Shown: one piece after another, positions 7,225 to 33,433 of the stretch
Layout: every line of letters begins with the position of its first letter
Position numbering within the stretch: position 1 is the stretch's first letter
From: Gallionella sp.
GTDB taxonomy: Bacteria > Pseudomonadota > Gammaproteobacteria > Burkholderiales > Gallionellaceae
Direction: 5' to 3'
Length of the DNA stretch: 33,433 bases
Assembly: GCA_024653675.1 (NCBI GenBank)
Contig: JANLIB010000275.1
Span: forward strand, 1 to 33,433
Translations under genes and position numbers: made by a program
The notes under the pieces: generated by a model
Databases searched by the model: none
Told to the model about the DNA's origin: nothing
The model's input: only the letters and a program-made list of their open reading frames with translations

Positions 7225-7392
7225 GGGTGAGCGCCTCAAAGGCGCTGATAAAACCATGTGCCGCTTGAAGCGGCATTCCCTCTGCATCCCCCTTTAGAAA
7301 AGGGGGACTGAGGGGGATTTGAAAATGCCGAGTTCATATCCATCATCCGCAAATCCCCCCTCGCCCCCCTTTTTCAAAGGGGGGATGTACAG
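7201..7392. repeat. Composite palindromic repeat block (island-boundary copy A)
   Basis: Contains ttattgggtgagcgcctcaaaggcgc, cccctttagaaaaggggg and aaatcccccctcgcccccctttttcaaagggggg; inverted relative to 10312-10513. Confidence 0.85.
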
Positions 7393-10311: not shown

Positions 10312-10513
10312 TAACCCCCCCTTTGAAAAAGGGGGGCGAGGGGGGATTTGCAGTATGCAGTATGCAGTATGCAATATGCAATTCAGGTGTTCTCAAATCC
10401 CCCTCATTCCCCCTTTTCTAAAGGGGGAGGCGAAGATTGCAGTCGCCTTCAGGCGGCTCGCGGTTTTATCGGCGCCTTTGAGGCGCTCACCCAATAAGCC
10501 CTGGCTTTGCCGA
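10312..10513. repeat. Composite palindromic repeat block (island-boundary copy B)
   Basis: Reverse complement carries the same ordered modules as 7201-7392. Also contains a (gcagtat)n heptamer tract at about 10349-10381. Confidence 0.85.
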
Positions 10514-15187: not shown

Positions 15188-17752
15188 TCAATGTATCACT
15201 GTGTTTGCATCCAGCCTTGACCGCAAAAAATTCACATTCAGCGCCACTTTTCCGAACTCTTCCAGTGACAACGGATTGCCGAATAAATAGCCCTGATAAG
15301 CCTTGCAGCCAACATGTTCCAGGAAAGTGCGTTGCGCCTCGGTTTCCACCCCCTCTGCGATCACATCTATCCCGAGACTGTTGGCCATGCCGATGATGGT
15401 CTGCACAATCACTGCGTCGGTAGGCTTGGTGCCGATGTTGCGCACAAAAGATTGATCGATCTTCAATTGGTCAAGCGGAAGCTGCGTCAGATAAGCCAGG
15501 GATGAATATCCGGTTCCAAAATCGTCCATCGAGAAACGCACCCCGGCCTTCTTGAGTTCGTGCATCTTGCCGATGGCGTCGTTGATATTGTCCAGCACCA
15601 CACTCTCGGTCAATTCAAGCTTAAGCCGGGTCGGGTTGGCGCCGGTCTTTTTCAGGATTTCTCTCACTTGTTCGACAAAATCCGGCTGATGGAACTGAAG
15701 CGCGCTCACGTTGACAGCGATCTGCAATTCACTTGCCAGCGGATTGGTTTCCCAATCCTTGATCCTGGCACAGGTGGTTTCAAGCACCCAGCGCCCGATG
15801 GCTACGATAAGTCCGGTCTCTTCAGCCATGGGAATAAATTCGGTTGGCATCACCAATCCCTGTACCGGGTGCCTCCAGCGCAGCAATGCTTCGGCGCCGA
15901 TGGTGCGGTTTGCGGCATTTACCTGTATTTGATAGTAGAGATCGAATTGGTTATGGGAAAGCGCATGGCGCAGGTCCGCTTCAAGCTTGACGCGGGCCTC
16001 AAGCACGGCTTGCATGGTCGGGTCGAAGAAACGCAGAGTGTTACGCCCGGCGGTTTTGGCCTCGTACATTGCCGTGTCAGCCCGCTTGAGCAGGTCGTCC
16101 ACGCTGACATCGTGCGCGCGGAAAAGGCTGACGCCGATACTGCAGGAACTGTGATATTCAAAATTCCTCAACCGGTAAGGGTGGCCGAGCGATTCGCGGA
16201 TTTTTTCCCCTATAGCTTTCGCCTGGGCGGCAGCCTGTTCCACTTCCTCGCTCAAATTGACCATCATGACGACGAATTCGTCGCCGCCCAGCCGGGCTAC
16301 CGTATCCCCTCCGCGCACGCTGGCCTGCAGGCGCTGGGCTGCCTCGATCAACAGCAGGTCGCCGACATCGTGGCCCTTGGTGTCATTGAGCGTCTTGAAA
16401 TTGTCCAGATCGATGAACAGCAGCGCGGAGTGGGCAATACTGCGGGTGCCGGAAGCCATGGTGTGATGCAGGCGATCTATCAGCAGGCGGCGGTTCGGCA
16501 GCTTCGTAAGCGGATCGTAGAAAGCAAGCTGATGTATCTGTTCTTCAGCCTGCTTGCGCAATGTGATGTCGGTAAATACCGATACATAGTGCGACATCTT
16601 CCCTGCCGCATCAGTGACGGCGGTAGTGGTAAGCCATATCGGATAAATCTCGCCATTCTTGCGCCGGCTCCAGACTTCACCCTGCCAGTATTTATCTCTG
16701 GTGATGGTTTCCCACATGTCAAGGTAAAACTTCCTGTCATGTCGCCCGGACGTGAGCAAGTCGGGAGTCTGCCCGATCGCCTCATCGGAGCTATAACCGG
16801 TCAAACGCGTGAAGGCGCGATTGACCCGAAGGATGCGCTTGTCAAGATCGGTTATCAGGATGCCCTCCTGCGTCTCGAAAGCTGTTGCAGCGATACGCAA
16901 TTCCTGGCCTCTTTCCACAACTCGATAATAGGCATAGACGGCGTATCCGAGCATCAGCATTGACGCCAGAAACAACAGGAGCTGATAGGCGAAAGCCGTG
17001 CGTTGTTGTGCCTGGTAGAAATCCAGATATTGCTGTTCGAGATCAGCCCCGATGTCTTTCTTTCCGATCGGACTGAGGCGCAGAAGCAATTCCGTCATGC
17101 CGTTTCCATGATCCAGAATAAGCTTGGCGTGCCGCAATGCGATTTTTGCAGGATCTTTGGCGCGGTCGGGCAAACCCGGAATGGCCTGCTCTACCCTGCT
17201 GATGTCCTGTTCCAGAATTTCCCGGATGCGATTGCCTGAATCGACACTTATCAAAAGAGCGTCGCGAAGCAGAAATGTGAATTGCTCCCGGCGCAACATG
17301 TCATTCTCGGGCAATAGCGCCAGAATGATGTTGATCCTGCGCGGCAAATACAGAAAAGAGTTCTTGATTACCGAGTTATTGGATTTGAATTGCTCAAGCT
17401 CTTCCTGCTTCTTTTCGATATGCTGCTGCAACCAGATCAATTCCTGCCTGACCTCCGGCGTATCCGGCAGCAACCCGCTTTGATGGTGTTGTGACAACCT
17501 GGCGCCGAGCCTCTGTATGCGTTGCATGATTGCGACCACCGTATCGTAGTTGCTGATCAAACGATAGTGGATCTGCAACACTGCTTCGCCCAACTCGGCC
17601 TCGCGCGTTTGCAGCTCGCGAAAATCGGACTGAACCAGATTGTGCGTATCAGGATCGACGGGCCGCGCCTTTACAAACAAAAATATCAGGAACGCCGCTC
17701 CCGCGCACGACAGGATCAGTTCCCATTTGTTTGTTTTGGCAAAGCGGATCAT
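15188..17752 (-). CDS. Membrane sensor PAS-GGDEF-EAL protein (c-di-GMP turnover)
   Basis: RLGGDEFVVMM; EALLRW; DDFGTGYSSL; N-terminal TM plus helical sensor region, then PAS (AATAFETQEGILITDLDKRILRVN). Confidence 0.93.
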   Translation of the reverse strand: MIRFAKTNKWELILSCAGAAFLIFLFVKARPVDPDTHNLVQSDFRELQTREAELGEAVLQIHYRLISNYDTVVAIMQRIQRLGARLSQHHQSGLLPDTPEVRQELIWLQQHIEKKQEELEQFKSNNSVIKNSFLYLPRRINIILALLPENDMLRREQFTFLLRDALLISVDSGNRIREILEQDISRVEQAIPGLPDRAKDPAKIALRHAKLILDHGNGMTELLLRLSPIGKKDIGADLEQQYLDFYQAQQRTAFAYQLLLFLASMLMLGYAVYAYYRVVERGQELRIAATAFETQEGILITDLDKRILRVNRAFTRLTGYSSDEAIGQTPDLLTSGRHDRKFYLDMWETITRDKYWQGEVWSRRKNGEIYPIWLTTTAVTDAAGKMSHYVSVFTDITLRKQAEEQIHQLAFYDPLTKLPNRRLLIDRLHHTMASGTRSIAHSALLFIDLDNFKTLNDTKGHDVGDLLLIEAAQRLQASVRGGDTVARLGGDEFVVMMVNLSEEVEQAAAQAKAIGEKIRESLGHPYRLRNFEYHSSCSIGVSLFRAHDVSVDDLLKRADTAMYEAKTAGRNTLRFFDPTMQAVLEARVKLEADLRHALSHNQFDLYYQIQVNAANRTIGAEALLRWRHPVQGLVMPTEFIPMAEETGLIVAIGRWVLETTCARIKDWETNPLASELQIAVNVSALQFHQPDFVEQVREILKKTGANPTRLKLELTESVVLDNINDAIGKMHELKKAGVRFSMDDFGTGYSSLAYLTQLPLDQLKIDQSFVRNIGTKPTDAVIVQTIIGMANSLGIDVIAEGVETEAQRTFLEHVGCKAYQGYLFGNPLSLEEFGKVALNVNFLRSRLDANTVIH

Positions 17753-18804
17753 CTGTGCGCCCCGCTTTGCTGGTGAGCGGACAACAGTTTTCCGTCATAC
17801 TCGCCGGTCAGGGCATTGAGAAATTTGACGATCTTTGCAACTTCTTCTTCGCGCAAATCCACGCCAAGCTGGTATTTTCCCATGATGATTACCGCAGCAT
17901 CCAATGTGCTCGCGGAAGCATCGTGCAAATAAGGCGCGGTCAATGCCACGTTGCGCAATGACGGCACGCGAAATTCGTAGCGATCGTCCTCATCCTTTGT
18001 GAGGTTATAGCGGCCTAAATCAACTTTGCGCAAATTTCCGCGATTCCTGAAATAATCTTCAACCAGACCCAACTTCTCATACATGTTTCCGCCCATATTC
18101 ATGCCCTGGTGACAGCTGATACAGCCAAGGCTCTTGAACAGGTCGTAGCCGGCCAGCTCGGAGCTATCCAGGGCTTGCTTGTCGCCGCGCAAATAACGAT
18201 CGAATCTTGAGTTGGGGGTGTTCAACGAACGCTCAAAAGTGGCAATCGCGTCCCTGACTGTTTGTGGATTAATATTTTCTTTGTAAATATCCGCAAAATC
18301 GCGGCGATAAGCCTTATCATTCCCCAGTTTGGCGATGACCTCGTCCCAGGTCGAACCCATTTCACAGGGGTTATTCATCGGGAAATCTATCTGATCTTCC
18401 AATGTTGCTGCGCGCCCGTCCCAGAATAACCTGAAATTGAAACCGCTGTTGAACACCGTCAGCGTGTCAATCTTACCGTCTGTTTTGCTAGAGCCAACAG
18501 GGTGCGCCAATCCATCCACTCCGCCTGTCGCAAGATTATGGCAATGCGCGCAGGATATCCTGCTGTCGCCGGAAAGTTGGGGGTCGTGAAATAGCCGCCG
18601 TCCAAGAGCAACTTTGCGCTTGTCCAGCTTTAAATCGCGCGGTATCGGGGTGATCGGCTCATCCACGTCGCCATGCTTTACGGCAAACACGGCATCTTCT
18701 TCCGCGCCGTTATGAGCATATGTTGTATACCAGAAAACAAATGCTGCCCCGCATAGAGCCAGTCCAAACAAAGCCAGCACCAACCAGTACGAACGCTTAA
18801 CCAT
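17749..18804 (-). CDS. Di-heme cytochrome c peroxidase family protein
   Basis: Two CXXCH motifs (CAHCH, CISCH), N-terminal signal anchor, FWDGRAATLEDQ, VPSLRNVALTAPYLHD. Confidence 0.93.
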   Translation of the reverse strand: MVKRSYWLVLALFGLALCGAAFVFWYTTYAHNGAEEDAVFAVKHGDVDEPITPIPRDLKLDKRKVALGRRLFHDPQLSGDSRISCAHCHNLATGGVDGLAHPVGSSKTDGKIDTLTVFNSGFNFRLFWDGRAATLEDQIDFPMNNPCEMGSTWDEVIAKLGNDKAYRRDFADIYKENINPQTVRDAIATFERSLNTPNSRFDRYLRGDKQALDSSELAGYDLFKSLGCISCHQGMNMGGNMYEKLGLVEDYFRNRGNLRKVDLGRYNLTKDEDDRYEFRVPSLRNVALTAPYLHDASASTLDAAVIIMGKYQLGVDLREEEVAKIVKFLNALTGEYDGKLLSAHQQSGAHR

Positions 18805-19319
18805 GGTGTCCTTTTACTCAGAAAAGCAGCATATCCACGAAATAAACAAAGTAACGAGAACCCAACATGTGAGCAATACGTCGTATCATTACTCAACAGG
18901 CGAATATTTATCGCATGGATATTTATCGTGGTAACTTGATGATTTATAAGGCGCCTTTCGTGTTATTGCATCCCGGCAATATTTTGCACAAGCCAATTCA
19001 TGAGTTGAAAAGCAATTTTCAGGCCTATTCCATGATTTGTGGAGCATATTGTGCTCCCTAAGTTCCGAATATTCAATCAGGTACTGTTTCTTCCAATCCG
19101 TCTAAAGCCGGCACGCGACCAGGCTCCCGCATACGCCAGGAAAATAAATCGTGAAGAGTTTTTTCAGGATAATTTTCCGGAATTTCGATCGCGAAGATGG
19201 AAGACCGCATGGATTTAGCAGCGTCGGCTGCAACAAACGCCATGCAAGGAAAAGGCCGGCGAGCGATCCCGCGATTTGCAAAAAAGCAGTGAGAATTTTT
19301 ATAAGTGCAACAGCAGCGC

Positions 19320-19348
19320 AATAAGAAACCCCGCAGCAGGCTGCGAGG
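19320..19348 (-). terminator. Rho-independent terminator downstream of the nuo operon
   Basis: On minus strand: cctcgcag-cctg-ctgcgggg followed by tttcttatt. Confidence 0.6.
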
Positions 19349-19481
19349 TATAGATGGTGCAGAATGGATAAAACGCCAAAGGCATGTATCCACCAATAAA
19401 CCGCTGGAGCTTAATCCACTCTGCGAAATATGACGCTGCAAGCAGCGGGGAATCGAACCCAAAGAGGTTGAAAATTCACCG

Positions 19482-20936
19482 CTAATGCAGCAACAAGGAT
19501 TGTCTGACAGCCACGGCGCAAACCGACATCAATGTTTCGGGAAGCAAACCTAGCAACAGCACGGCCAGACCGTTCACGCTGATCAGCAGCGCAGTATCCT
19601 GGCCGATGGTGATCGGTGCATGGCTTTCCGGCGTATCGAAATACATCAGCTTGACGATACGCAAGTAATAGAAAGCGCCGATCAAAGAGAACAACACTGC
19701 AACCACCGCCAGCCAGACATGCCCGGCCTGCACAGCGGCGTTCAGCACTGAAAATTTGGCGGTAAAACCGACAGTGGGCGGCACACCGGCCATGGAAAAC
19801 ATCAACAGCAGCATCAGGAAAGCGAGCCACGGGCTGCGCCGGCTGAGCCCTTTGAAATCGTCAAGCGTATCGGCTTCAAAACCCATTCTTGACAGCAGAA
19901 TGATCATGCCGAACGAGCCCAGCGACATCAACACATACACCACGGCGTAGAACATCGATGCGCCGTAGCCCACGATTCCGCCGCTCAACAGCCCCAGCAG
20001 CATAAAGCCCATGTGGGCGATGGTTGAGTAGGCGAACATGCGTTTGAGGTTGGTCTGCACGATCGCGGTTATGTTGCCGAGCGCCATCGAGGCAATTGCA
20101 AGAATAATCAACATACCCGACCAATGTTGTACCAAGGGTTGCAGGCCTTCGACCAGAATGCGCGCAACGAAAGCAAAGGCGGCAAGTTTGGGAGCCGAGC
20201 CGATCAGCATCGTTACGGCGGTAGGCGCACCCTGATACACATCCGGCACCCACATATGGAAGGGCACTGCGCCGAGTTTGAAGGCCAGTCCGGAGACCAC
20301 AAACACCAGGCCGAACACCAGTATATTCTTGTCCGCCGTACCGGACTGGATCGCCTGTGACACCGCGCCCAGCTCCAGCGTGCCGGTCGCGCCATACAGC
20401 ATGGACATGCCGTACAGCAACAGGCAGGACGCCAGCGAGCCCAGCACAAAATATTTCATCGCGGCTTCGATGGCAATGGAGGAATCGCGTTGCAGGGCGA
20501 CTATCGTATACAGGCTCAGAGAAAGCAGTTCCAAACCGAGATACAGGGTCAGGAAGTTGTTGGCTGATATCATGACCATCATCCCGATCATGGCGAACAG
20601 TACCAGCACCATGAACTCGCCGGTGAACAGTTCGCGCACGGTGAGATATAGTCTTGAATACGCCAGCATCATGGACAAAGCCAGACAGGTCAACAGCTTC
20701 AGCACATCGGACATCGAATCGTCCACGAACATATTGTGAAAAGCGTAGACCACGCCGTTTCCATGCGTGCCGACGATAATCAGCGAACAGCCCAGCAAGG
20801 TGAGTTGCACCAGCAGGTAGGTGACCAGCCTGCCATCCTGCCTGATCAACAAATCCGCAATCAGTATCACGCACGCCATGGCCAGCACGAATACCTCGGG
20901 GAGCACAGGCAATAAGTCCGATATTACAAAGTTCAT
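19482..20936 (-). CDS. nuoN: NADH-quinone oxidoreductase subunit N
   Basis: [30 protein letters not shown]...; ATG overlaps the nuoM stop (ATGA). Confidence 0.95.
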
Positions 20937-22576
20937 AGCGTCTGTTTCCGATCCCGGTTGGAAATTTGACAAGGCGGTGCGCGGCACGCGTCCGCAGGTG
21001 TCCGGTTCACTGCGGCGGTGTTTGCCACTGCGGCATGCTGAAGTCTCCGGACGGGCAGCGACGGAGGAACTGCTTCATTAAGCCCTTCGATATTATTGAC
21101 GCCCCGGACCGGCGACACTTCCGAGACGAGGTGCTCTACGCTTGCCCGCATCCTGGCGAGGAACGGTTCCGGGTTGAAGCCGATCCAGAAGACCAGCACC
21201 AGCAGCGGCAATAATGTTGCGATCTCGCGGCCGTTGAGGTCGGTGACAACAACCTCCTCCTTCCTGGTCGATTCCCCCCAGACCACGCGTTGCAGCATCC
21301 AGAGCATGTAGGCCACGGTAAGCACTACCCCGCCGAGAGCGATTGCCCCGGCCAGCAAGCTGGATTTAAATGATCCGACCAGCACCAGGAATTCCCCGAC
21401 AAACGAATTTGTCCCGGGAAGCCCGAAGGAAGCAAAGGAAAAAATAGCCAGCAGCGTCACATAAATCGGCACCGTCATCCGCAACCCTCCGCAGTCCGAG
21501 ATAAGCCGGCTGTGGGTTCTCTCGTAGATCATTCCCACGCAGAGAAAAAGCGCTCCGGTGGTGATCCCGTGGTTGACCATCTGAAGAATTGCCCCTTCGA
21601 TGCCCTCTGTGTTGAAGACGAATATTCCCAGCGTAACGAATCCCATATGCCCGACGCTGGAGTAGGCGACCAGTTTCTTGAGATCGGTCTGCACCAGCGC
21701 CATGTACGAGCCCCAGATGATGGCAATCAACGAAAGGATCAGGATGACCGGCGCAAAGGCATGACTCGCATCGGGGGTTATCGGCAAACTGAATCTCAGA
21801 AACCCGTAGGTGCCCAGCTTCAGCATCACGCTTGCCAGCATCACACTACCGGCAGTGGGCGCCTCGACGTGGGCATCTGGCAGCCAGGTATGAAACGGAA
21901 ACATCGGAACCTTGATCGCGAAGGCCAGGAAGAATGCCCAGAACACCCAGAACTGGAACGCCGCGCTGTATGATCCTTGCGCAAGCTGCTGAATGTCAAA
22001 TGTCCCGCCACCCGTGAAATACAGCGCCAGTATCGCCACCAGCATGGGAAGGCTTCCTGCCATCGTGTAGAGGAAGAACTTCAACGCGGCATATACCCGG
22101 CGCTGACCGCCCCATACCCCGATGATAAGAAACATCGGGATGAGTTCCGCCTCCCAGAAGACGAAGAACAGGAACAGATCGAGCGCCACAAAGACTCCGA
22201 TTATCGCCGCCTCCATGATCAGGATCGCCATCATGTACTCCTTGACCCGGGTATCGATGGCCTTCCATGAACAGAGCACGCAAAGCGGAGTAATCAGGGT
22301 GGTGAGCAGCACCAGCAGCACACTGATTCCGTCCACACCTACGGCATAGTTGATGTTGAAAGCGGGTATCCATGACAACCGGGTGACAAACTGCATCTCG
22401 TGGCTGGAGGTATCGAAGAGAAACCACAGCGGAAGCGAAACGGCAAAAACCAGCAGGGTAAAAACGAGAGCTGTCCAGCGCGTCCACCCATCATGGCGCG
22501 GGGCGAAGCCGATTATCGCCGCGCCAAGGAGCGGGAGAAGTATAAGCAAACTCAAAAGGTTGGATTCGTGTATCAC
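20933..22576 (-). CDS. nuoM: NADH-quinone oxidoreductase subunit M
   Basis: [26 protein letters not shown]...[18 protein letters not shown]...; nonstandard ~60 aa C-terminal tail. Confidence 0.93.
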
Positions 22577-22585
22577 GCTATAACC

Positions 22586-24331
22586 TCAGAACAGTGAATA
22601 AAGGCTCAGGATTAACAGTGATCCCACCATAACCAGGGCGTACTGCCGGAGCTGTCCGGTTTGCATCTGCCGCAGTGTGCTGCCCCCCCGCACCACCGCA
22701 GCGGCAATGGCGTTGACAGCCCCGTCAATGACGTGCTTGTCCAGCCATAGCCCTTTTATGCCAAGTATCAGATTGCCGCGGAACACGTGGCGGTACACTT
22801 GAATAAACCAGTTTTCGATGGGGCTTACCACGTGGTACACGAACTGCATGAAAAGGCCTGCGCCCTTCCGGTAGAACCAGTCTATATCCAGGGTAATCTT
22901 GCGCAGCCCCCCGAGTTTTTTGCGCAGCATGAAGAAGCCCATGGCGGTAAACAGCAGTATCTGCAAAGCCCAGATGATATGGGTTGGCGTGTAGGAATGG
23001 TACTCAACCACGTTCGGCAGCTTGTCGTAAAGCCATGCGGGATAAACACCGATGAAGATGCACAGGAACGCGGCCATCCCCATCGCCACCAGCATGTTGC
23101 GTGGCGGTTCTGCCGGTCGCGCCCCGCAATCCTTGCCAAAGAAGGTGTAATAGGGAATCTTCAGCCCCAGGCACAGGAACGTTCCGACGGAAGCCAGAGT
23201 GAGCAGCAGCCATACCTTGGGAAGATGCATTTCGGCGGCGGCAGAAATTTCCATGGACTTGCTCACGAATCCGCTGAATAGGGGAAAAGCCGAAATCGAC
23301 AAGGCGCCGACCATGTAGAGAACAAAGGTCACGGGCATCCAGCGGTATAAACCTCCCAGCTCGCTAAGCTTGCTCTGCCCCGTCATCTGGATGACTGCTC
23401 CCGCCCCCATAAACAGAAGTCCCTTGTACAGGATGTGCGCAAAAGCATGCGCGACCGCACCGTTGATGGCCAGAGCCGAACCCATCCCCACGGCGGTCAC
23501 CATGAAGCCCACCTGGCTGATGATGTGATAGCCGAGCAGACGGCGAATATCGTTCGACAGCATGGCAAACACCACACCGTAGAGCGCCATGAAAGTGCCC
23601 ATCCAGATGAGCAGCTCGGTCCCGGGGTAGGCGCGGATCAAGGCATAGACCGCCGTCTTGGTAGTAAAAGCACTCAGAAAAACCGCACCGGTCACCGTTG
23701 CCTCAGGGTAGGCATCGGTCAGCCATGCGTGCAGCGGAGGAACGGCAGCGTTGAGCATGAAACCGGCCAGGATGAGATAGAACGCCGCGCCATTTCCCTG
23801 CATGACATCGAAACGGGTCGATCCGGTCGTCACATAAAGTATCACGATCCCGGCAAGGAGCACCACGCCGCCGACGGCATGCACCAGCAGATACCGGTAC
23901 CCGGCTTCGATCGAGGCCTTTACCCGGCGCGACCAGATGAGCCAGACCGAGGCGAACGCCATGAGCTCCCAGAACACAAAGAGCGTCAAAAGATCGCCGG
24001 CAAACGTTACCCCGAGCGATGACCCGGCATAGACGAACGCGGCGATATGTTGCCCATTGTCCTTGACATGCAGCGCATAGGTCGCCCCGACCAGCGCTGC
24101 GATCGAAAACACATATGCAAAGGCAAGACTGAGCTTGTCCGCACGTCCGAAGATCAGTTCAAATCCGAGAAAGTTGACGACACCATGGACGCCGGGCGAC
24201 ATCAGCATCACGGTCACCAGCGCAAGAGCCGGCAGCAGGACGATATAAATCTGCTGCGCTCTTCCTCTGATGAAAGGAATGAACAAAGCCCCCAGAATGA
24301 GGAAAACTGAAGGGTGTACCCAATCAATCAT
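22586..24331 (-). CDS. Proton-translocating antiporter-like subunit, NuoL position (Mrp-like core, NuoL-like C-terminus)
   Basis: Proton_antipo_M-type core; C-terminus IDGAVNAIAAAVVRGGSTLRQMQTGQLRQYALVMVGSLL resembles the NuoL C-terminus. Confidence 0.85.
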   Translation of the reverse strand: MIDWVHPSVFLILGALFIPFIRGRAQQIYIVLLPALALVTVMLMSPGVHGVVNFLGFELIFGRADKLSLAFAYVFSIAALVGATYALHVKDNGQHIAAFVYAGSSLGVTFAGDLLTLFVFWELMAFASVWLIWSRRVKASIEAGYRYLLVHAVGGVVLLAGIVILYVTTGSTRFDVMQGNGAAFYLILAGFMLNAAVPPLHAWLTDAYPEATVTGAVFLSAFTTKTAVYALIRAYPGTELLIWMGTFMALYGVVFAMLSNDIRRLLGYHIISQVGFMVTAVGMGSALAINGAVAHAFAHILYKGLLFMGAGAVIQMTGQSKLSELGGLYRWMPVTFVLYMVGALSISAFPLFSGFVSKSMEISAAAEMHLPKVWLLLTLASVGTFLCLGLKIPYYTFFGKDCGARPAEPPRNMLVAMGMAAFLCIFIGVYPAWLYDKLPNVVEYHSYTPTHIIWALQILLFTAMGFFMLRKKLGGLRKITLDIDWFYRKGAGLFMQFVYHVVSPIENWFIQVYRHVFRGNLILGIKGLWLDKHVIDGAVNAIAAAVVRGGSTLRQMQTGQLRQYALVMVGSLLILSLYSLF

Positions 24332-24575
24332 TGTAGTAATCCTCAGGCCGTCCCAGCCAATAGTGTCCCAATGTCTTCGAAACGACGACGATCAGGATAA
24401 AGGAGAGGAGCCCGTAGAGGGCGCTGAACCCCGGAATGTCGTCCCAGAAAAAATGTGAGTGGTGCCGGGGAAGAAAAAAATCGATCACGACTATGAGCGC
24501 CAGTACCGCGAAACCGATCCGCTTCAACGTCTTCGCGTTATTCACCAGGTTTTCCAGAATTTTGCCAATATCCAT
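24324..24575 (-). CDS. Small (83 aa) two-TM hypothetical protein
   Basis: MDIGKILENLVNNAKTLKRIGFAVLALIVVIDFFLPRHHSHFF...; overlaps both neighbours by 1-8 nt. Confidence 0.75.
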   Translation of the reverse strand: MDIGKILENLVNNAKTLKRIGFAVLALIVVIDFFLPRHHSHFFWDDIPGFSALYGLLSFILIVVVSKTLGHYWLGRPEDYYND

Positions 24576-26062
24576 CACCGAATCCCCACCTTGATTAAAT
24601 TGAGGAAGTGGTCCGGATAGATGCCCAGAGCCACCGTTCCAACCGCCGTAATCAGCAACGGTATAAGGACTTTGTAGGGCGCTTCGCTGATGCCTTCGTG
24701 CCCATCCGCCGGCGGAGTCCCAAACACAGCCTTGTAGACGACCGGCGCGAAGTACGCCACGTTGAGCAGGCTGCTGGTCAATATCACCCCGAGCAGCATC
24801 CAGCTCCTGGTCTCTATGGTGCCTACGGCAAGATTCCATTTGGTGATGAATCCGGCGAATAGCGGCACGCCGATGATGCTGAGTGACCCGATGGCGAAGG
24901 CTGCGATCGTCCACGGCATTTTCCGTGCAATCCCGTGCATTTCACTGATGTTGGTCTTGTGCGACGCGACATAGATCGCGCCGGCGCAGAAGAACAGCGT
25001 GATTTTCGTGAAGGCATGATTCACGATGTGAATGATGCCGCCGGTGATTCCGCTGACCGACAGCAGCGCCACGCCCAGCACGATGTACGAGAGCTGGCTC
25101 ACTGTGGAATAGGCCAGCCGCATCTTGAGATTGTCCTGGGTCAGCGCATAGGCCGACGACGCCAGGATGGTGATGGAAGCGATAATGGCCGTGTAGTCAC
25201 CCAGGTGGAGATTCTGCATCGTCGGAACCCCGTAGACGTCAACCACCAGCCGGACGATACAGAATGCGCCGACCTTCACCACCGCCACGGCGTGGAGCAG
25301 AGCGCTTACCGGCGTGGGCGCCACCATCGCGGAGGGCAGCCAGTTGTGCATCGGCATCAGCCCGGCCTTGGCAAAACCGTACAGGAACATGAAATACATC
25401 ACTGTCAAAAGTGTCGGAATCTCCATCCCGGAGAACGTCGTGGCCGTTATCCCCATGAACATCCCCACCTTGTTGAATTCCAGCGAGCCGGTAAGGCTAT
25501 ACGTCAGGATGATGGCGCCCAGAAGGATGCTGCTCGATGCGCCCACCAGATAAAGCAGATACTTGCGCCCCGCATCCCAGTCCTTGGCGGCTTCATTGTG
25601 TATCACCAGCGGCAACGTGCACAGGCTCAGTACTTCATAGAAAAAGAACAGCGTGAACAGATTTCCCGCAAAGGCGACGCCCATGGCCGAGGACAGCGCA
25701 ATGGCAAAGCAGGTGTAATACCTCGTCTGGGCATGCTCCTTGAGGGTGCGCATGTAGCCCATGGAATAAACCGTGGTGATAATCCACAGAAATGAGGACG
25801 TGGTGGCAAACAGCAAACCGATACCGTCCACCTTGAAAGCGAGTTCAACGCCGGGAAGAATTTTGAAGACCGTATACTTGATCGCTATCCCGGAAAGAAC
25901 CGCAGGCGTCATGGATATAACGATCAGAAACTTGATGACTCCCGCACCGATGGACCAACCCTCTCTCAGGTTCGGGCGCCGGTAAGAACACATGATCAGC
26001 ACGGCGGCAATTGCCGAGACCAGCACCGCCAGAAGAGGCTTTATCGAAATCAATGTTTCCAT
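24575..26062 (-). CDS. MrpD-like proton antiporter subunit
   Basis: 495 aa; FFFYEVLSLCTLPLVIHNE, FAKAGLMPMHNWLPSAMVAPTPVSALLHAVAVVKVGAF, AYSTVSQLSYIVLG. Confidence 0.9.
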   Translation of the reverse strand: METLISIKPLLAVLVSAIAAVLIMCSYRRPNLREGWSIGAGVIKFLIVISMTPAVLSGIAIKYTVFKILPGVELAFKVDGIGLLFATTSSFLWIITTVYSMGYMRTLKEHAQTRYYTCFAIALSSAMGVAFAGNLFTLFFFYEVLSLCTLPLVIHNEAAKDWDAGRKYLLYLVGASSSILLGAIILTYSLTGSLEFNKVGMFMGITATTFSGMEIPTLLTVMYFMFLYGFAKAGLMPMHNWLPSAMVAPTPVSALLHAVAVVKVGAFCIVRLVVDVYGVPTMQNLHLGDYTAIIASITILASSAYALTQDNLKMRLAYSTVSQLSYIVLGVALLSVSGITGGIIHIVNHAFTKITLFFCAGAIYVASHKTNISEMHGIARKMPWTIAAFAIGSLSIIGVPLFAGFITKWNLAVGTIETRSWMLLGVILTSSLLNVAYFAPVVYKAVFGTPPADGHEGISEAPYKVLIPLLITAVGTVALGIYPDHFLNLIKVGIR

Positions 26063-26190
26063 GTGGCCATCCGGTTCATCCCAGCGAGTGAAAAGACGGC
26101 GAAATCATAATTCGCCGGGCTATCAATCCGGTAAAGAAAAAAACTGTTTTTAATCATTGTGGTCATCATTATCACCATCGCACCGGCGGT

Positions 26191-26496
26191 TCATCCCTTC
26201 AGCTCGTCCCAATCGGCCACATCGATCGTCCGCCTGTTACGGAAAAGCAGCACGACGATGGCAAGCCCGATGGCCGCCTCGGCAGCGGCAACCACCAATA
26301 TGAAAAAGACAAATATCTGGCCGGCGGGGTCTCCCCGATAGTGCGAGAATGCGACGAAATTCGTATTCACCGCCAACAGCATCAGCTCGATCGCCATCAA
26401 CATATTGATGATGTTCTTCCGTTTGAACAGAATACCGGCAACTCCCATGCAGAAGATGACCGCTCCAAGAATCAGGAAATCAGAAAGAACAATCAT
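26191..26496 (-). CDS. nuoK: NADH-quinone oxidoreductase subunit K
   Basis: [20 protein letters not shown]...[20 protein letters not shown]. Confidence 0.97.
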
Positions 26497-27128
26497 CGAC
26501 CGGCCTCTGCTGGGTTATCCATTTTTTCCTGAGCGTGTTTCTCCGGGAGCATCTTGACCAGGCGCAAGCGATCCGCTTTCCTGACCGCGATCTGTTCGGG
26601 CACCGCCTGCGATTTGGCATCCTTGCGGCGGCGCGAGGTCAAGGCAATCGCGGCCACCATCGCCACCAGCAGAATCACTGCGGCAATCTCAAACGGGTAA
26701 ACATATTCGGTATAAATCAAGCGCCCCAATTCCTTGGTATTGCTGTAATCGGCAGCATGCTTAATGGCCGTCTTGCCACCGGATATTCTGGAGGGACCCA
26801 ATACCCAAGTCATCTCGAATACCATCAAACCGGCCAGCACCGCACCGAATGGAAGCCAGCGCCAGAAACCTTCGCGCAGCCGCGCCGGATTGATGTCCAG
26901 CATCATCACCACAAACAGGAACAGCACCATCACCGCACCGACATATACCAGCACCAGCGTAATGGCGAGGAACTCCGCTTCCAGCAGCATCCAGATGCCT
27001 GCCATGCTGCAAAAAGCCAGCACCAGGAACAACACCGCATGCACCGGATTGCGCGAGGTGATTACACGCAATGCCGCAAACACCGTCAAGGCAGCAAACA
27101 GATAAAACACGATGGTTTCAAAATTCAT
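26493..27128 (-). CDS. nuoJ: NADH-quinone oxidoreductase subunit J
   Basis: [78 protein letters not shown]; internal start in ORF 26493..27221. Confidence 0.96.
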
Positions 27129-27143
27129 AAATTTACCCTTTTT

Positions 27144-27246
27144 GTAAGTGGTAAGTGGAGCGGTGCTGCGCACCTCAGTAGTGAGTGGAAAAAACCCAGC
27201 CCCTCGCTTCGCGCTCCCCACTTACTACTCACCACTTACTACTATC
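27144..27246. repeat. Heptamer-based inverted repeat (gtaagtg)n ... (cacttac)n
   Basis: gtaagtggtaagtgg at 27144 and ccacttactactcaccacttactact at 27218 in the nuoI-nuoJ spacer. Confidence 0.7.
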
Positions 27247-27724
27247 TATACTTGGCGTCCGCTGCCCTGTCCTTCGCGATCTGCTCTTCATATTTGCCGC
27301 CCAATGCCAGCAACATCGGTTTGGTGTAATACAAGTCGCCGCGCTTTTCGCCGTGATATTCGAAAATGCGGGTCTCGACGATCGCGTCAACCGGGCAGGA
27401 TTCCTCGCAGAAGCCGCAGAAGATGCACTTGGTCAGGTCGATGTCATATCGCGTGGTGCGGCGCGTGCCGTCTTCGCGCTCGGCCACTTCGATCTTGATC
27501 GCCAGTGCCGGGCAAATTGCCTCACACAGCTTGCAGCCGATACAACGCTCTTCGCCGCTGGCATAACGGCGTTGCGCATGCAGGCCGCGAAAGCGGAAAC
27601 TCTGCGGAGTCTTTTCCTCAGGGTACTGCACAGTGATTTTGCGCGCAAAGAAATACCGCCCGGTCACAGCCATGCCCTTGATTAACTCAAAAAGCAGGAA
27701 AGTCTTGAAGAAATTTTTGATCAT
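27242..27724 (-). CDS. nuoI: NADH-quinone oxidoreductase subunit I
   Basis: Two 4Fe-4S motifs, [12 protein letters not shown] and [30 protein letters not shown] start. Confidence 0.97.
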
Positions 27725-27741
27725 TTGCATATTCTTCCCAT

Positions 27742-28782
27742 CTACCAGACCCACAGCGGAGTCTGCATCCATACCGCAATCACCACCACCCAGATGATGG
27801 TGAGCGGGATGAACACTTTCCAGCCCAGGCGCATCAACTGGTCATAGCGATAACGCGGGAAGGTCGCGCGGAACCACAGGAACAGGAACAATATGAAGGA
27901 GACCTTGCCCAGCAGCCAGATGAAGCTGTCCGGCAGGAACGGCAACGGCGACAACCAGCCGCCCAGGAACATGATGGCGGTCAGGAAAGCGATCAGAATC
28001 ATGTTGGCGTATTCGGCCAGGAAAAACAGCGCGAACGCCATGCCGGAATATTCCACATGGAAACCCGCGACGATCTCGGATTCGCCTTCGGCCATATCGA
28101 ACGGCGCGCGGTTGGTTTCCGCCACGCCGGAAATCAGGTAGACCATGAACATGGGAAACAGCGGGATCAAGTTCCAGTTCAGGGCGCCCAGGCTGCCATG
28201 CTGGCCGCGCACGATCTCGCCCAGATTCATGCTTTGCGAGACCATCAGCACGCATACCAGCGCGAAACCCATCGCGATTTCATAGGACACGATCTGCGCC
28301 GCGGAACGCACCGCGCCGAGAAATGCGTATTTGGAATTGGATGCCCAGCCGGCGATGATGATGCCGTACACCCCCAGTGAGGTCATCGCCAGGATGTACA
28401 ACAGCCCTGCGTTGAGGTCGGCCAGCGCCATCCCTTCGCTGAACGGAACCGCCGCCCAGGCTGCCAGCGATGGGGCCAGCGCCATGATGGGCGCCAGAAC
28501 GAACAGGAACTTGCTGGAGCCGGCCGGAATGACGATTTCCTTGAACAGCAATTTCACGCCGTCGGCGACCGGTTGCAGCAAGCCGAAATATCCGACGCGA
28601 TTCGGGCCGATGCGGATCTGCATGTAGCCGATGACCTTGCGCTCGGCCAGCGTCAGATAGGCGACCGCGCCCATGATCGGCAATACGATCGCCATGATCT
28701 TGACCAGAGTCCAGACCGGCAGCCATGCGGGACCAAGCAGGTCCTGGCCGGCGTGTTGTATCGCCTGCAACAATTCCATCAT
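27742..28782 (-). CDS. nuoH: NADH-quinone oxidoreductase subunit H
   Basis: [33 protein letters not shown]...; start overlaps nuoG stop. Confidence 0.97.
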
Positions 28783-31199
28783 GTCCGATCTCCGTTTACC
28801 GGTTCAACAATGATCGTACCAAACATTGCACCCAGTCCGGCCGTGGCGTGATGTCCCGCCGCCACACGCGCAGTACCGGCCGGCATGGTGTCGTTCGCTT
28901 GCGCCACCAGCCGCACAGTTGCCTTGCCCTGAGTCACTTTAACGGTGTCTCCGGGTTTCACGCCCAGTTTTTGCATCTCGCTGCTGTGCATCACCACGCA
29001 CGGAGTTGCAGCGTCGCACGTCTTTTGCAGCGCGGCAGCGCGACGCACCACGGCATCGGCGGAATAGATCGGCACATCGGCAACGCGCTGAAATCCCCCG
29101 CTCACTTCGTTCGCCGCCCCCTTTTGCAAAGGGGGCACAGGATGCCCCCCCCTTTGAAAAAGGGGGGCTGGGGGGGATTGCAGCGCAACACCAGAAATAC
29201 GGTTGTTCAATTTGTCCGCAACCTTCACGCCGGACAGCATTTCATCGCGCACCGCTTCACTGGAGTCGAAATCAAAACCGGCTACGTCGAGCAGATTACC
29301 CAGCACGCGCAGCACTTTCCAGGCCGGGCGGGCTTCACCCAGCGGCTTGACCGCGCCCCTGAAACTTTGCGCACGGCCTTCGGTGTTCATGAACGTGCCC
29401 GAGGTTTCAGTGAAGGGCGCGATGGGCAACAACACATCGGCGTAATCGGTCGCATGGTGTTTATAGGCCGACAAGGCCACCACCATATCGGCGGCATTCA
29501 TCGCGGCCATCGCCAGTTGCGGGTCATGCATATCGAGTTCCGGCTCGACATTCAGCAGGATGTATGCCTTGCGCGGCGATGCCAGCATCTGAGCGGCATT
29601 CATGCCCGTGGCACCGGGCACGGCTCCGGCCAGATAGCCGCCGGCGCTGTTCGCCGCCTCGCCGAGGAAACCGAACTTCGCCCCGCACAATCCGGCGATC
29701 TGCCCGGCCAGCAAAGAAATCTGTGAAGCCTGCGGATGTTGTTGCGCGAAATTGCCCAGCAATACTGCGGCACGTTCGCCGCTTGCCAGACTGTGCGCGA
29801 TGGCACGCGCTTGCGCGGAAGGTTGCACAGCTTCGACGGCCTTCTGCGCCTCAACGGAAAGTGCAGCCGATTTTTCAGCGGCGAGCGCTTTGAGGATTTG
29901 CGCCAGCGCGTTAGCCAGATCGCTCGGCGCAACGATGGACTTGTTTGCCACCGGCATCAGCAGATCGTCGTCAATCGAGTGAACAATATTGGCCTGGGCG
30001 CCCTTCTTGACAGCCTGGCGCACACGCTGAGCCAGCAGCGGATGGTCTTTGCGCAAAAAGCTGCCGACGATCAGGAAACGGTCGCGGGTGTTGATGTCGG
30101 CGACCGGCATGCCCAGCCAGGGAGCGCCGTCTTGTTTGCCGTCCGCACTGAAGTCCGACTGGCGCAAACGATAATCGATATTGTTACTGCCCAAGCCGCG
30201 CATCAGTTTTTGCAGCAGATAGAGTTCTTCCAGCGTGCTGTGCGGCGTCGCCAGCGCGGCAATCTGCTCTGCGCCGCTTGCAGTCCTGATCTGGCGCAAG
30301 CCATTCGACACATACTCCAGCGCAACCTGCCATTCGACTTCGATCCACTTGCCGTCCTGCTTGATCATGGGTTTGGTCAGGCGTTCCGGCGCGTTCAGCC
30401 CTTCATAGCTGAACCTGTCCTTGTCGGATATCCAGCATTCGTTGACGGCTTCGTTCTCTGCCGGCGCCACCCGCAGCACCTTGTTGTCCCTCACCTGCAC
30501 GGACAGATTGGAGCCCAGGCCGTCGTGCGGGCTGACCGACTTGCGCCGCGACAATTCCCAGTTGCGCGCGGTGTAACGGTATGGCTTGCTGGTCAGCGCG
30601 CCCACCGGGCACAGATCGATCATGTTGCCGGACAGCTCGGAATCCACCGAGCTGTTCACAAAGCTCATGATCTCGGAATGCTCGCCGCGGAACGCCATGC
30701 CCAGTTCCATCATCCCGGCGATTTCCTGTCCGAAGCGCACGCAGCGCGTGCAGTGGATACAGCGGCTCATCTCTCCGGTGGAGATCAGCGGCCCGATGTC
30801 CTTGTGCATCACGCTGCGCTTGGGCTCCTGATAACGCGACTCGCAGCCGCCGTAACCCATCGCAATATCCTGCAACTGGCACTCGCCTCCCTGGTCGCAT
30901 ATCGGGCAATCCAGCGGATGGTTGATCAACAGGAACTCCATCACCCCTTTTTGCGCCTTGACCGCTATCTCGGAATGCGTGCGCACCTTCATGCCCTCCG
31001 CAACCGGAGTGGCGCAGGCCGGCAGCGGCTTGGGCGCCTTCTCGACCTCGACCAGGCACATCCGGCAACTGGCCGCGATGGACAATTTTTTGTGGTAGCA
31101 GAAATGCGGAATATAGACGCCCAGCTTATTCGCCGCATCCATCACCGTGGAACCGTGCTCGGTTTCAACTGCTTTGCCGTCAATTTCCAGATTAATCAT
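28779..31199 (-). CDS. nuoG: NADH-quinone oxidoreductase subunit G
   Basis: [27 protein letters not shown]...[18 protein letters not shown]...[14 protein letters not shown]; contains in-frame repeat-derived peptide. Confidence 0.96.
29091..29179. repeat. Palindromic CCCCC-TTTTTCAAA-GGGGG repeat inserted in frame in nuoG
   Basis: aaatccccc...cccccttttgcaaaggggg...cccccccctttgaaaaaggggggctgggggggatt; encodes [31 protein letters not shown]. Same family as the 7.3 and 10.3 kb blocks. Confidence 0.9.
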
Positions 31200-31250
31200 T
31201 ACTCACCTGATCCGCCTTATTACATTTGCATTACAAACAACAATAACCCC

Positions 31251-31299
31251 GTAGGGTGCGTTTACGCACCAATTGGCAATGTGCGTAAACGCACCCTAC
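31251..31299. repeat. Perfect 19-bp inverted repeat GTAGGGTGCGTTTACGCAC
   Basis: Arms 31251-31269 and 31281-31299, between nuoF and nuoG. Confidence 0.85.
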
Positions 31300-31319
31300 A
31301 TTATTTCTCACCGGCCATG

Positions 31320-32600
31320 TCACACCAGGCAACGCTTGTGTTCGATGTGATATTCGAATTCGTCACGGAAATGCCTGAGCATGCCCTGCACCGGCCAGAC
31401 CGCGGCCTCGCCCAATGCGCAGATGGTCCGTCCGGCGATGTTCTCGCCCACGCTCAGCAACATGTCCAGATCATCCTTGCGCCCTTCGCCGTGCTCGATA
31501 CGATGCACGATGCGGTACAGCCAGCCGGTGCCTTCGCGGCACGGCGTGCATTGCCCGCAGGACTCCTCGTAATAGAAATAGGACAGGCGTTCCAGCGCGC
31601 GCACCATGCAGGTGGTGTCATCCATGATGATCACCGCGCCGGTTCCCAGCATCGAGCCGGCCTTGGAAATGGAATCGTAGTCCATGGTCAAACCCATCAT
31701 GATCTCGCCGGGCAACACCGGCATGGATGAGCCGCCGGGGATACAGGCTTTCAGCTTGCGCCCGCCGCGCATTCCCCCGGCCATTTCCAGCAGCTTGGTG
31801 AACGGCGTTCCCATCGGCACTTCGAAATTGCCCGGATTGTTCACATGGCCGGACACCGAAAACAGCTTGGTGCCGCCGTTGTTGGGCTTGCCCAATTCCA
31901 GGAATTTCTGCCCGCCATTCCTGATAATGTAGGGAATGCTGGCGAAGGTCTCGGTATTGTTGATGGTGGTCGGCTTGCCATACAGGCCGAAGCTGGCCGG
32001 GAACGGCGGCTTGAACCGCGGCTGGCCTTTCTTGCCTTCGATGGACTCCAGCAATGCGGTCTCTTCGCCGCAGATGTATGCGCCGTAACCCAGATGATTG
32101 TGCAGGTCGAAACTGAAGCCGCTGCCAAGTATGTCATTCCCCAGATAACCCGCCGCGCGCGCCAGTTCGCAGGCCTCTTCCATGCGCTCATATGCCTCGA
32201 AGATTTCGCCATGCACGTAGTTGTAGCCGGTCCTGACATTCATCGTATAAGCCGCGATGGCCATGCCCTCGATCAGCGAATGCGGGTTGTACCGCAATAT
32301 GTCGCGGTCTTTGCAGGTGCCCGGCTCGCCCTCGTCAGAATTGCAGACAAGGTACTTGTCGCCATCGTAGTTCTTTGGCATGAAACTCCACTTCAGCCCG
32401 GTCGGAAACCCCGCGCCGCCCCGCCCGCGCAACGCCGACAGCTTGACTTCGGCGATGATCGCTTCAGGCGGCATTTTTTCAGTCAGCACCTTGCGCAATG
32501 CCTGATAACCGCCCACCTTGAGGTAATTCTCCAGCGTCCATGGCTGGTCGAACTCCGAAGTAGTGAAAATGACCGGTCCGCTCATGCCAGTGTTATTCAT
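31320..32600 (-). CDS. nuoF: NADH-quinone oxidoreductase subunit F
   Basis: [32 protein letters not shown]; start overlaps nuoE stop (ATGA). Confidence 0.97.
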
Positions 32601-33076
32601 GATTGGTCCAGCTCCGCCAGAATTTGATCGATCTTTTCCGTGGTCAAACAGCCGCACAGCCTCTTGTTGTCAATGGAAAACAGCGGCGCATCCACACACG
32701 CCCCCATGCACTCCCCTTCGCGCAAACCGAATTTTCCGTCGGCTGTCACCCCGCCAAATCCGATGCCAAGCTTCGATTCCAGGTACGCAACTGTGTCGCT
32801 GGCACCGCCCAACTGGCAGGATATATTGGTGCACACCGTGATGGTGTGCTTGCCCATCGGCTTGAGGTTATACATGTGATAGAAACTCGCCACTTCGTAC
32901 ACCGCCATCTGCGGCATGCCCAGATATGTTGCTACATCGGCCATATCCTCGGTAGCGACCCAGCCCTTTTCATCCTGCACGAATCGCAAAGCGGCCATCA
33001 CCGCAGACTGCTTCTGGTCTGCCGGATATTTATTCAGCTCGCGGTTGATCCTGGCTTGTATCTGTTCGGATAACAT
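32597..33076 (-). CDS. nuoE: NADH-quinone oxidoreductase subunit E
   Basis: [40 protein letters not shown]...[11 protein letters not shown]...[12 protein letters not shown]. Confidence 0.96.
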
Positions 33077-33084
33077 TGTTTTAT

Positions 33085-33133
33085 GGATGCCTCAAAAAAT
33101 TCAAAGTTCGCCCAAATGCAAGGCGCGTAAATA
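33085..33133. repeat. Diverged relative of the terminal sequence of the 386-531 element
   Basis: gcctcaaaaaattcaaagttcgcccaaatgcaaggcgcg compared with cctctaaaagttcaaaatcccaagcgagacaaggcgcg. Confidence 0.45.
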
Positions 33134-33186
33134 AATACGGCAATCCCGCAGAATATCTATGAGACTTGCAGCCGCGCATTCTGCCA

Positions 33187-33433
33187 TCAATCGTCCTTGT
33201 CTTCACCCATACGCTTCGTCACATATTTGAGATCGAAGTCAAGTACCCGTGCGGCGAGTTTATCGATCAGAGCGCGTTCGGGCTTAGTTTTATCATTATC
33301 GCCCTTGTCATCGCTGTCATCTTCCTTATCCGCGTCCGGCTGTTCCTTTTTGATCAGATTTCGTATTTCCTGAATCTGTTGCCTGCCGACCTTGGGCTGG
33401 TTCAAGCGGTATGCGCTGATCGCGGCCTGGAAG
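33187..33433 (-). CDS. C-terminal part of a hypothetical charged protein, running off the window edge
   Basis: Open frame to the window end (...FQAAISAYRLNQPKVGRQQIQEIRNLIKKEQPDADKEDDSDDKG...). No family recognised. Confidence 0.5.
   Translation of the reverse strand, partial: FQAAISAYRLNQPKVGRQQIQEIRNLIKKEQPDADKEDDSDDKGDNDKTKPERALIDKLAARVLDFDLKYVTKRMGEDKDD

Follow-up and report, generated by a model that had tools for sequence, protein, structure and literature searches.

The nuo operon and its antiporter-type genes

We analyzed a stretch of 33,433 nucleotides (nt) from a Gallionella sp. assembly (contig JANLIB010000275.1), referred to below as the window, which carries an operon for respiratory complex I (nuo) with two MrpD-like antiporter genes, D1 and L2, and a small gene, S83, in the place of nuoL. 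Genes were named on the open reading frames (ORFs) of the window using NCBIfam profiles with their bit-score cut-offs and Pfam domains. An earlier note, made from the letters alone, had proposed four antiporter-type genes and a two-transmembrane (two-TM) protein at this locus; all proved to be intact ORFs within the boundaries it proposed, and the profiles confirmed the families of the antiporter-type genes. The operon lies entirely on the minus strand, in the order nuoE-F-G-H-I-J-K, D1, S83, L2, nuoM, nuoN. D1 (24575..26062; 495 amino acids) scored 687.2 bits against NF006236 (PRK08375; cut-off, 663), and L2 (22586..24331; 581 amino acids) scored 746.8 bits against NF009310 (PRK12668; cut-off, 564); both families are titled antiporter subunit D. 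In L2, an MrpD-like core is joined to a NuoL-like C-terminal lateral helix and a final TM helix. It aligned with canonical NuoL through the C-terminus (hhalign, E = 1.8e-39), and its predicted fold resembles the MrpA and NuoL chains (TM-score, 0.66 to 0.77). nuoM (20933..22576; TIGR01972, 643 bits) and nuoN (19482..20936, starting at 20936 and not 20987; NF004442, 712.6 bits) complete the distal part, and the Pfam domain Proton_antipo_M is present in D1, L2, NuoM, and NuoN. Several junctions overlap (J/K by 4 nt, D1/S83 by 1 nt, S83/L2 by 8 nt, and M/N by 4 nt); gaps separate L2 from nuoM (9 nt) and nuoK from D1 (128 nt).

S83 (24324..24575; 83 amino acids) separates D1 from L2 in nearly all green loci, as we call those arranged like the "green" complex I of rhizobia (see below), and in many Mrp-type loci. 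Its model consists of two long helices (residues 14 to 34 and 50 to 74; predicted local distance difference test score, 80). No sequence relative was found in Pfam, NCBIfam, or the PDB, and no fold match of weight was obtained. S83 is probably a structural subunit at the interface of D1 and L2.

The genome (2.9 Mb, 99.99% complete, 307 contigs) encodes seven antiporter-type genes of family PF00361: D1, L2, nuoM, nuoN, and three in a hydrogenase-4/formate-hydrogenlyase-like cluster. That cluster, on contigs C224/C225 (loci L004, L005, and L006), encodes a membrane complex that combines three subunits of antiporter type with NuoD-like large subunits. No canonical NuoL was found in the genome, which disposes of a hidden copy, nor were MnhB/MrpB or MrpG. 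When complex I was assessed on NuoE to NuoN plus NuoD, the NuoE-N set was complete, and NuoD was encoded on a separate contig (C303), the only NuoD in the genome over the cut-off. With canonical nuoL and the Mrp B and G genes all missing and only one nuoD scoring in full, the nuo operon of the window is the only complex I of this genome. The proposal that complex I here has four antiporter-like subunits plus an accessory protein is thus borne out at the level of gene content, and the arrangement that the earlier note had named as evidence to the contrary, a separate canonical nuoL together with an independent Mrp complex, was looked for in the genome and is absent.

L2 and NuoL were mutually exclusive across the genus. 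Among 36 other genomes, three (G007, G013, and G032) resembled the window genome in encoding L2 without NuoL; 32 of the remaining 33 encoded NuoL without L2, and one incomplete genome (87%) encoded neither.

Mosaic origin of the operon

To trace the parts of the operon, we compared the identity of green operons to canonical operons of the same genus with the identity of those canonical operons to each other. For NuoE, -F, -G, -H, -J, and -N, similarity across types was about the same as that within the canonical type. Median identity was 84% in both comparisons for nuoE (32597..33076; Pfam 2Fe-2S_thioredx), 90% versus 90% for nuoF (31320..32600; Pfam Complex1_51K, SLBB, and NADH_4Fe-4S), 78% versus 78% for nuoG (28779..31199; TIGR01973, 674.7 bits), 82% versus 82% for nuoH (27742..28782; NCBIfam NuoH, 517.7 bits), and 76% versus 77% for nuoJ (26493..27128; NCBIfam NuoJ, 276.8 bits), the last clearly native gene ahead of the graft. 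NuoN behaved likewise (77% versus 81%) and grouped in its tree with canonical NuoN of the same genus (support, 100/97). nuoI (27242..27772; NCBIfam NuoI, 301 bits) is also native, with 81 to 93% identity to same-genus canonical operons; its identities in the comparison across and within types are distorted by start-site errors and were not used.

NuoM, in contrast, was only 50% identical to same-genus canonical NuoM, where 86% is expected; this is lower than the 69% found between canonical NuoM of different families. Its tree placed it with green-type NuoM of Thermodesulfobacteriota and Verrucomicrobiota (support, 96/90). NuoK (26191..26496; NCBIfam NuoK, 154 bits) is of betaproteobacterial type but diverged: its identity was 67% against an expected 91%, and it fell among betaproteobacterial NuoK on a long branch. 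The operon is therefore a mosaic: its framework is that of a native betaproteobacterial complex I, and D1-S83-L2-nuoM of the green type have taken the place of nuoL-nuoM. The three related genomes with L2 have the same composition. Transfer of the whole operon is ruled out by the identities and trees, which mark E to J and N as native. D1, S83, and L2 occupy the former nuoL position, and NuoK is perhaps green-type as well. The exchange may have occurred by recombination across nuoJ/K and nuoN. A single exchange suffices, since the green operons of Gallionella cluster together; the closest L2 outside the genus is only about 60 to 65% identical, so the donor is not among the sampled genomes.

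The 128-nt spacer between nuoK and D1 (26063..26190) is conserved among green Gallionella-type operons. One stretch of it is AT-rich, and it has an imperfect hairpin with TTTT behind it; this hairpin-like repeat is only partly kept. In the canonical relatives compared, the nuoK-nuoL spacer is different or almost lacking, and an Rfam scan of positions 17000 to 33433 returned no match. Elsewhere in the operon, nuoG carries an in-frame palindromic repeat (29078 to 29180) that lengthens the protein by about 30 residues close to its C-terminus and is missing from most relatives; further copies or arms of it lie at 7286 to 7384 and 10315 to 10431. Downstream of the operon (15188 to 18804), a GGDEF/EAL-like sensor protein is encoded beside a di-haem cytochrome c peroxidase of the MauG family.

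The L2 subunit and the number of pumps

In E. coli, the helix-VII lysine of the ion pair is K229, K234, and K217 in NuoL, NuoM, and NuoN, respectively. In our alignments this site was Lys in canonical NuoL (21/21), NuoM (64/64), NuoN (61/61), and D1 (73/76; Lys232 here, codon 25367..25369), as well as in the three hydrogenase-type paralogues of the genome. In L2 it was Asn in 78 of 82 aligned sequences, including all 26 of complex-I type (Asn194 here, codon 23750..23752), and a profile alignment placed N194 opposite K237 of canonical NuoL from locus L123. The four L2 proteins that retain Lys (L072, L081, L084, and L086) form one small Mrp-type group with the motif FGIKCAFPFLHNW, unlike all others. 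We tested the pair of helix-V Glu and helix-VII Lys as the mark of a pumping antiporter-like subunit, and L2 lacks it. The lysine/glutamate relay is complete in D1, NuoM, and NuoN; that of D1 comprises E143, K232, K263, and K408, which are invariant or nearly so in the 76 aligned rows. The helix-VII Lys/Glu pair has been proposed as a coupling gate (PMC9271201), and the NuoL substitution K229A severely lowers complex I activity according to work cited in PMC4938563.

L2 also differs from canonical NuoL in its tail. Because the hhalign alignment was unreliable ahead of the IDG motif, tail length was counted as the number of residues from a DWxY anchor to the C-terminus. The anchor was checked against the E. 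coli residues D542, K551, and P552, which are named in PMC3274701. Tails measured about 76 to 78 residues in canonical NuoL of the order, mostly 70 to 78 in standalone Mrp-type L2, and 97 to 106 in green L2 (98 in the window and 102 in rhizobia), such that the L2 tail is some 22 to 30 residues longer than the canonical one. At 1.5 Å per residue, 24 residues span about 36 Å, a length consistent with one further subunit beneath the helix. The lateral helix region of L2 covers residues about 484 to 556 (22664..22882), with helices at 485 to 526 and 530 to 556 in the predicted model, where confidence is low. Comparable inserts of 26 residues have been reported for 2M NuoL and for Manganitrophaceae (PMC9040806). 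The tail reached 127 residues in locus L027, which has two NuoM; the lateral helix appears to lengthen with subunit number in the manner of a ruler. The idea that the lateral helix spans an extra subunit is thus supported, the tail being longer by about one subunit's worth.

Taken together, these results make it likely that the window encodes a mosaic four-antiporter complex I, with L2 as the odd subunit, in a Gallionellaceae-type, iron-oxidizer-like bacterium. D1, S83, and L2 would assemble into one complex I whose membrane arm runs H/J/K - N - M - D1 - L2; L2 is placed outermost because of its tail length, and its long lateral helix would reach back over D1, M, and N. D1 would take the place of NuoL as the third standard proton channel, and L2 would serve mainly as strap and end cap, pumping differently or not at all. 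Because L2 carries Asn194 while D1, M, and N keep the lysine, the "four pumps" may in fact be three pumps and one carrier of the lateral helix. Of the suggestion of a fourth channel, the four antiporter-like subunits stand; four channels are doubtful, given the Asn at the helix-VII site of L2.

Several points weigh against this reading. That D1, S83, and L2 assemble into complex I is deduced from the operon and the replacement of nuoL. The tail comparison depends on the motif anchor, hhalign being unreliable here and the model weak before the final helix. Five loci of Mrp or uncertain type (L030, L054, L055, L070, and L085) also have tails of 103 to 114 residues. The same lysine mutation had little effect in an Mrp-type, non-complex-I test system (PMC4938563). 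Finally, helix-V E122, helix-VIII K225, and helix-XII K358 of L2 are invariant (82/82), which argues against an inert strap; L2 is therefore not simply dead.

These invariant residues also speak for the strongest competing explanation, a true four-pump complex I in which L2 pumps via the lysines of helices VIII and XII, moving about five protons per two electrons and, in reverse mode, helping to make NADH during autotrophic growth on weak donors. The extended lateral helix fits it as well, and the authors of PMC9040806 count both MrpD subunits as pumps; the word lysine is absent from their main text. The RuBisCO large subunit and COX1-family oxidase encoded in the genome are also in its favor and make it plausible that complex I runs backwards to produce NADH. 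However, the helix-VII Asn is found in every aligned green L2, and a canonical complex I serves most of the sister species in the genus, so reverse running does not depend on the extra subunit. We regard the four-pump enzyme as possible but appreciably less probable than the mosaic enzyme with L2 as its odd subunit. To count L2 as an extra proton pump is doubtful from its residues, and we are evenly divided on whether the H+/2e ratio would stay near 4 rather than rise to 5.

It is very unlikely that D1, S83, and L2 make up an Mrp-like Na+/H+ antiporter of their own that is merely cotranscribed with complex I. Homologues of all three genes are indeed found in genuine Mrp clusters beside MnhB, MrpF, MrpG, and NuoK-like genes, but we reject this explanation since MnhB and MrpG are absent from the genome; moreover, complex I would be missing its distal subunit without another NuoL, and green-type L2 stands apart from most Mrp-type L2, with a longer, NuoL-like tail. 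An assembly or binning artifact that joined a foreign contig to a Gallionella operon, conceivable in a genome this fragmented, is refuted by the same arrangement in independent assemblies (L013-L018, G007, G013, and G032), and we consider its probability negligible.

The operon bears on the open question of whether the proton count of complex I is determined by how many antiporter-like subunits it contains. It is a natural experiment, with the distal part swapped within one genus, the electron-transfer part native, and near-identical canonical sisters available for comparison. The invariant change of Lys to Asn gives a direct, testable ground for doubting simple pump counting. More broadly, and more tentatively, all green complex I may divide the jobs of NuoL, with D1 as channel and L2, its coupling lysine lost, as strap, in a cassette that replaces nuoL-nuoM in native operons and moves between phyla; we rate this broad claim as somewhat short of an even chance. 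If the split between D1 and L2 is true, the five to six ions that have been published for enzymes of this kind are too many. In the literature searched, which did not include Chadwick 2018 or Degli Esposti 2016, we found no description of either the residue change or the mosaic operon.

Relation to known complexes

The earlier note had pointed to the 2M form of complex I as a variant already described and had suggested a search for the same gene order. That search recovered the order in a Sinorhizobium plasmid and in several phyla, and the green complex I of rhizobia proved closer than the 2M form. The Sinorhizobium meliloti plasmid shares the order J-K-D1-hypothetical-L2-M-N with the window and annotates D1 as "monovalent cation/H+ antiporter subunit D," S83 as "hypothetical protein," and L2 as "Na(+)/H(+) antiporter subunit D." Both enzymes have two MrpD-like subunits in the place of NuoL between nuoK and nuoM, Asn at the helix-VII site of L2, and a lengthened lateral-helix tail. 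D1, L2, and NuoM of the window are 55 to 57% identical to their rhizobial counterparts, and in the L2 tree both L2 proteins fall within the complex-I set, which is nearly one group apart from the Mrp type. Since the rhizobial enzyme is the nearest relative, the architecture has already been described; what the window encodes is a real new variant of it. The rhizobial enzyme is a second complex I beside the standard one, encoded as J-K-D1-S83-L2-M-N followed by ABCD and EFG, whereas the window enzyme is the sole complex I and only D1-S83-L2-M (perhaps K) is green, within a native betaproteobacterial operon. The state of being a second complex I is a habit of the known green members and not a strict definition. 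The D1-S83-L2 module is also part of nuo-type operons in Thermodesulfobacteriota, Verrucomicrobiota, Acidobacteriota, and other groups. Several green operons from Desulfobacterota (L019 and L022-L026) have strongly different NuoG-like and other input genes (26 to 35%), which suggests use of another electron donor module.

In Mrp-type clusters that have S83 and three MrpD-like genes, homologous D1, S83, and L2 follow one another in the same order, mostly with Asn in L2; these clusters differ from the window in having MnhB, MrpF, and MrpG, and their L2 tails are mostly shorter. The 2M complex I of Nitrospira (Chadwick et al. 2018, as cited in PMC9040806) resembles the window enzyme in having four antiporter-like subunits and in the extension of its lateral helix; as described there, it combines a canonical NuoL with a duplicated NuoM, whereas in the window NuoM is single and NuoL absent. 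In Complex_I_3 of Ca. Manganitrophaceae (PMC9040806), too, NuoL is replaced by a related pair of MrpD proteins and the lateral helix is lengthened; with two NuoM to the window's one, however, that enzyme counts five antiporter-like subunits, and it carries another helix insert of 26 amino acids. Such a five-antiporter complex has been called unique to Manganitrophaceae (PMC9040806). Locus L027 (JACRCM010000032.1, 261 to 9774), from a metagenome-assembled genome labeled Deltaproteobacteria (label as given), has a similar one, in the order K-D1-S83-L2-M-M-N; its L2 (610 amino acids) bears a further lateral-helix insert, and the helix-VII site is Asn in L2 and Lys in both NuoM.

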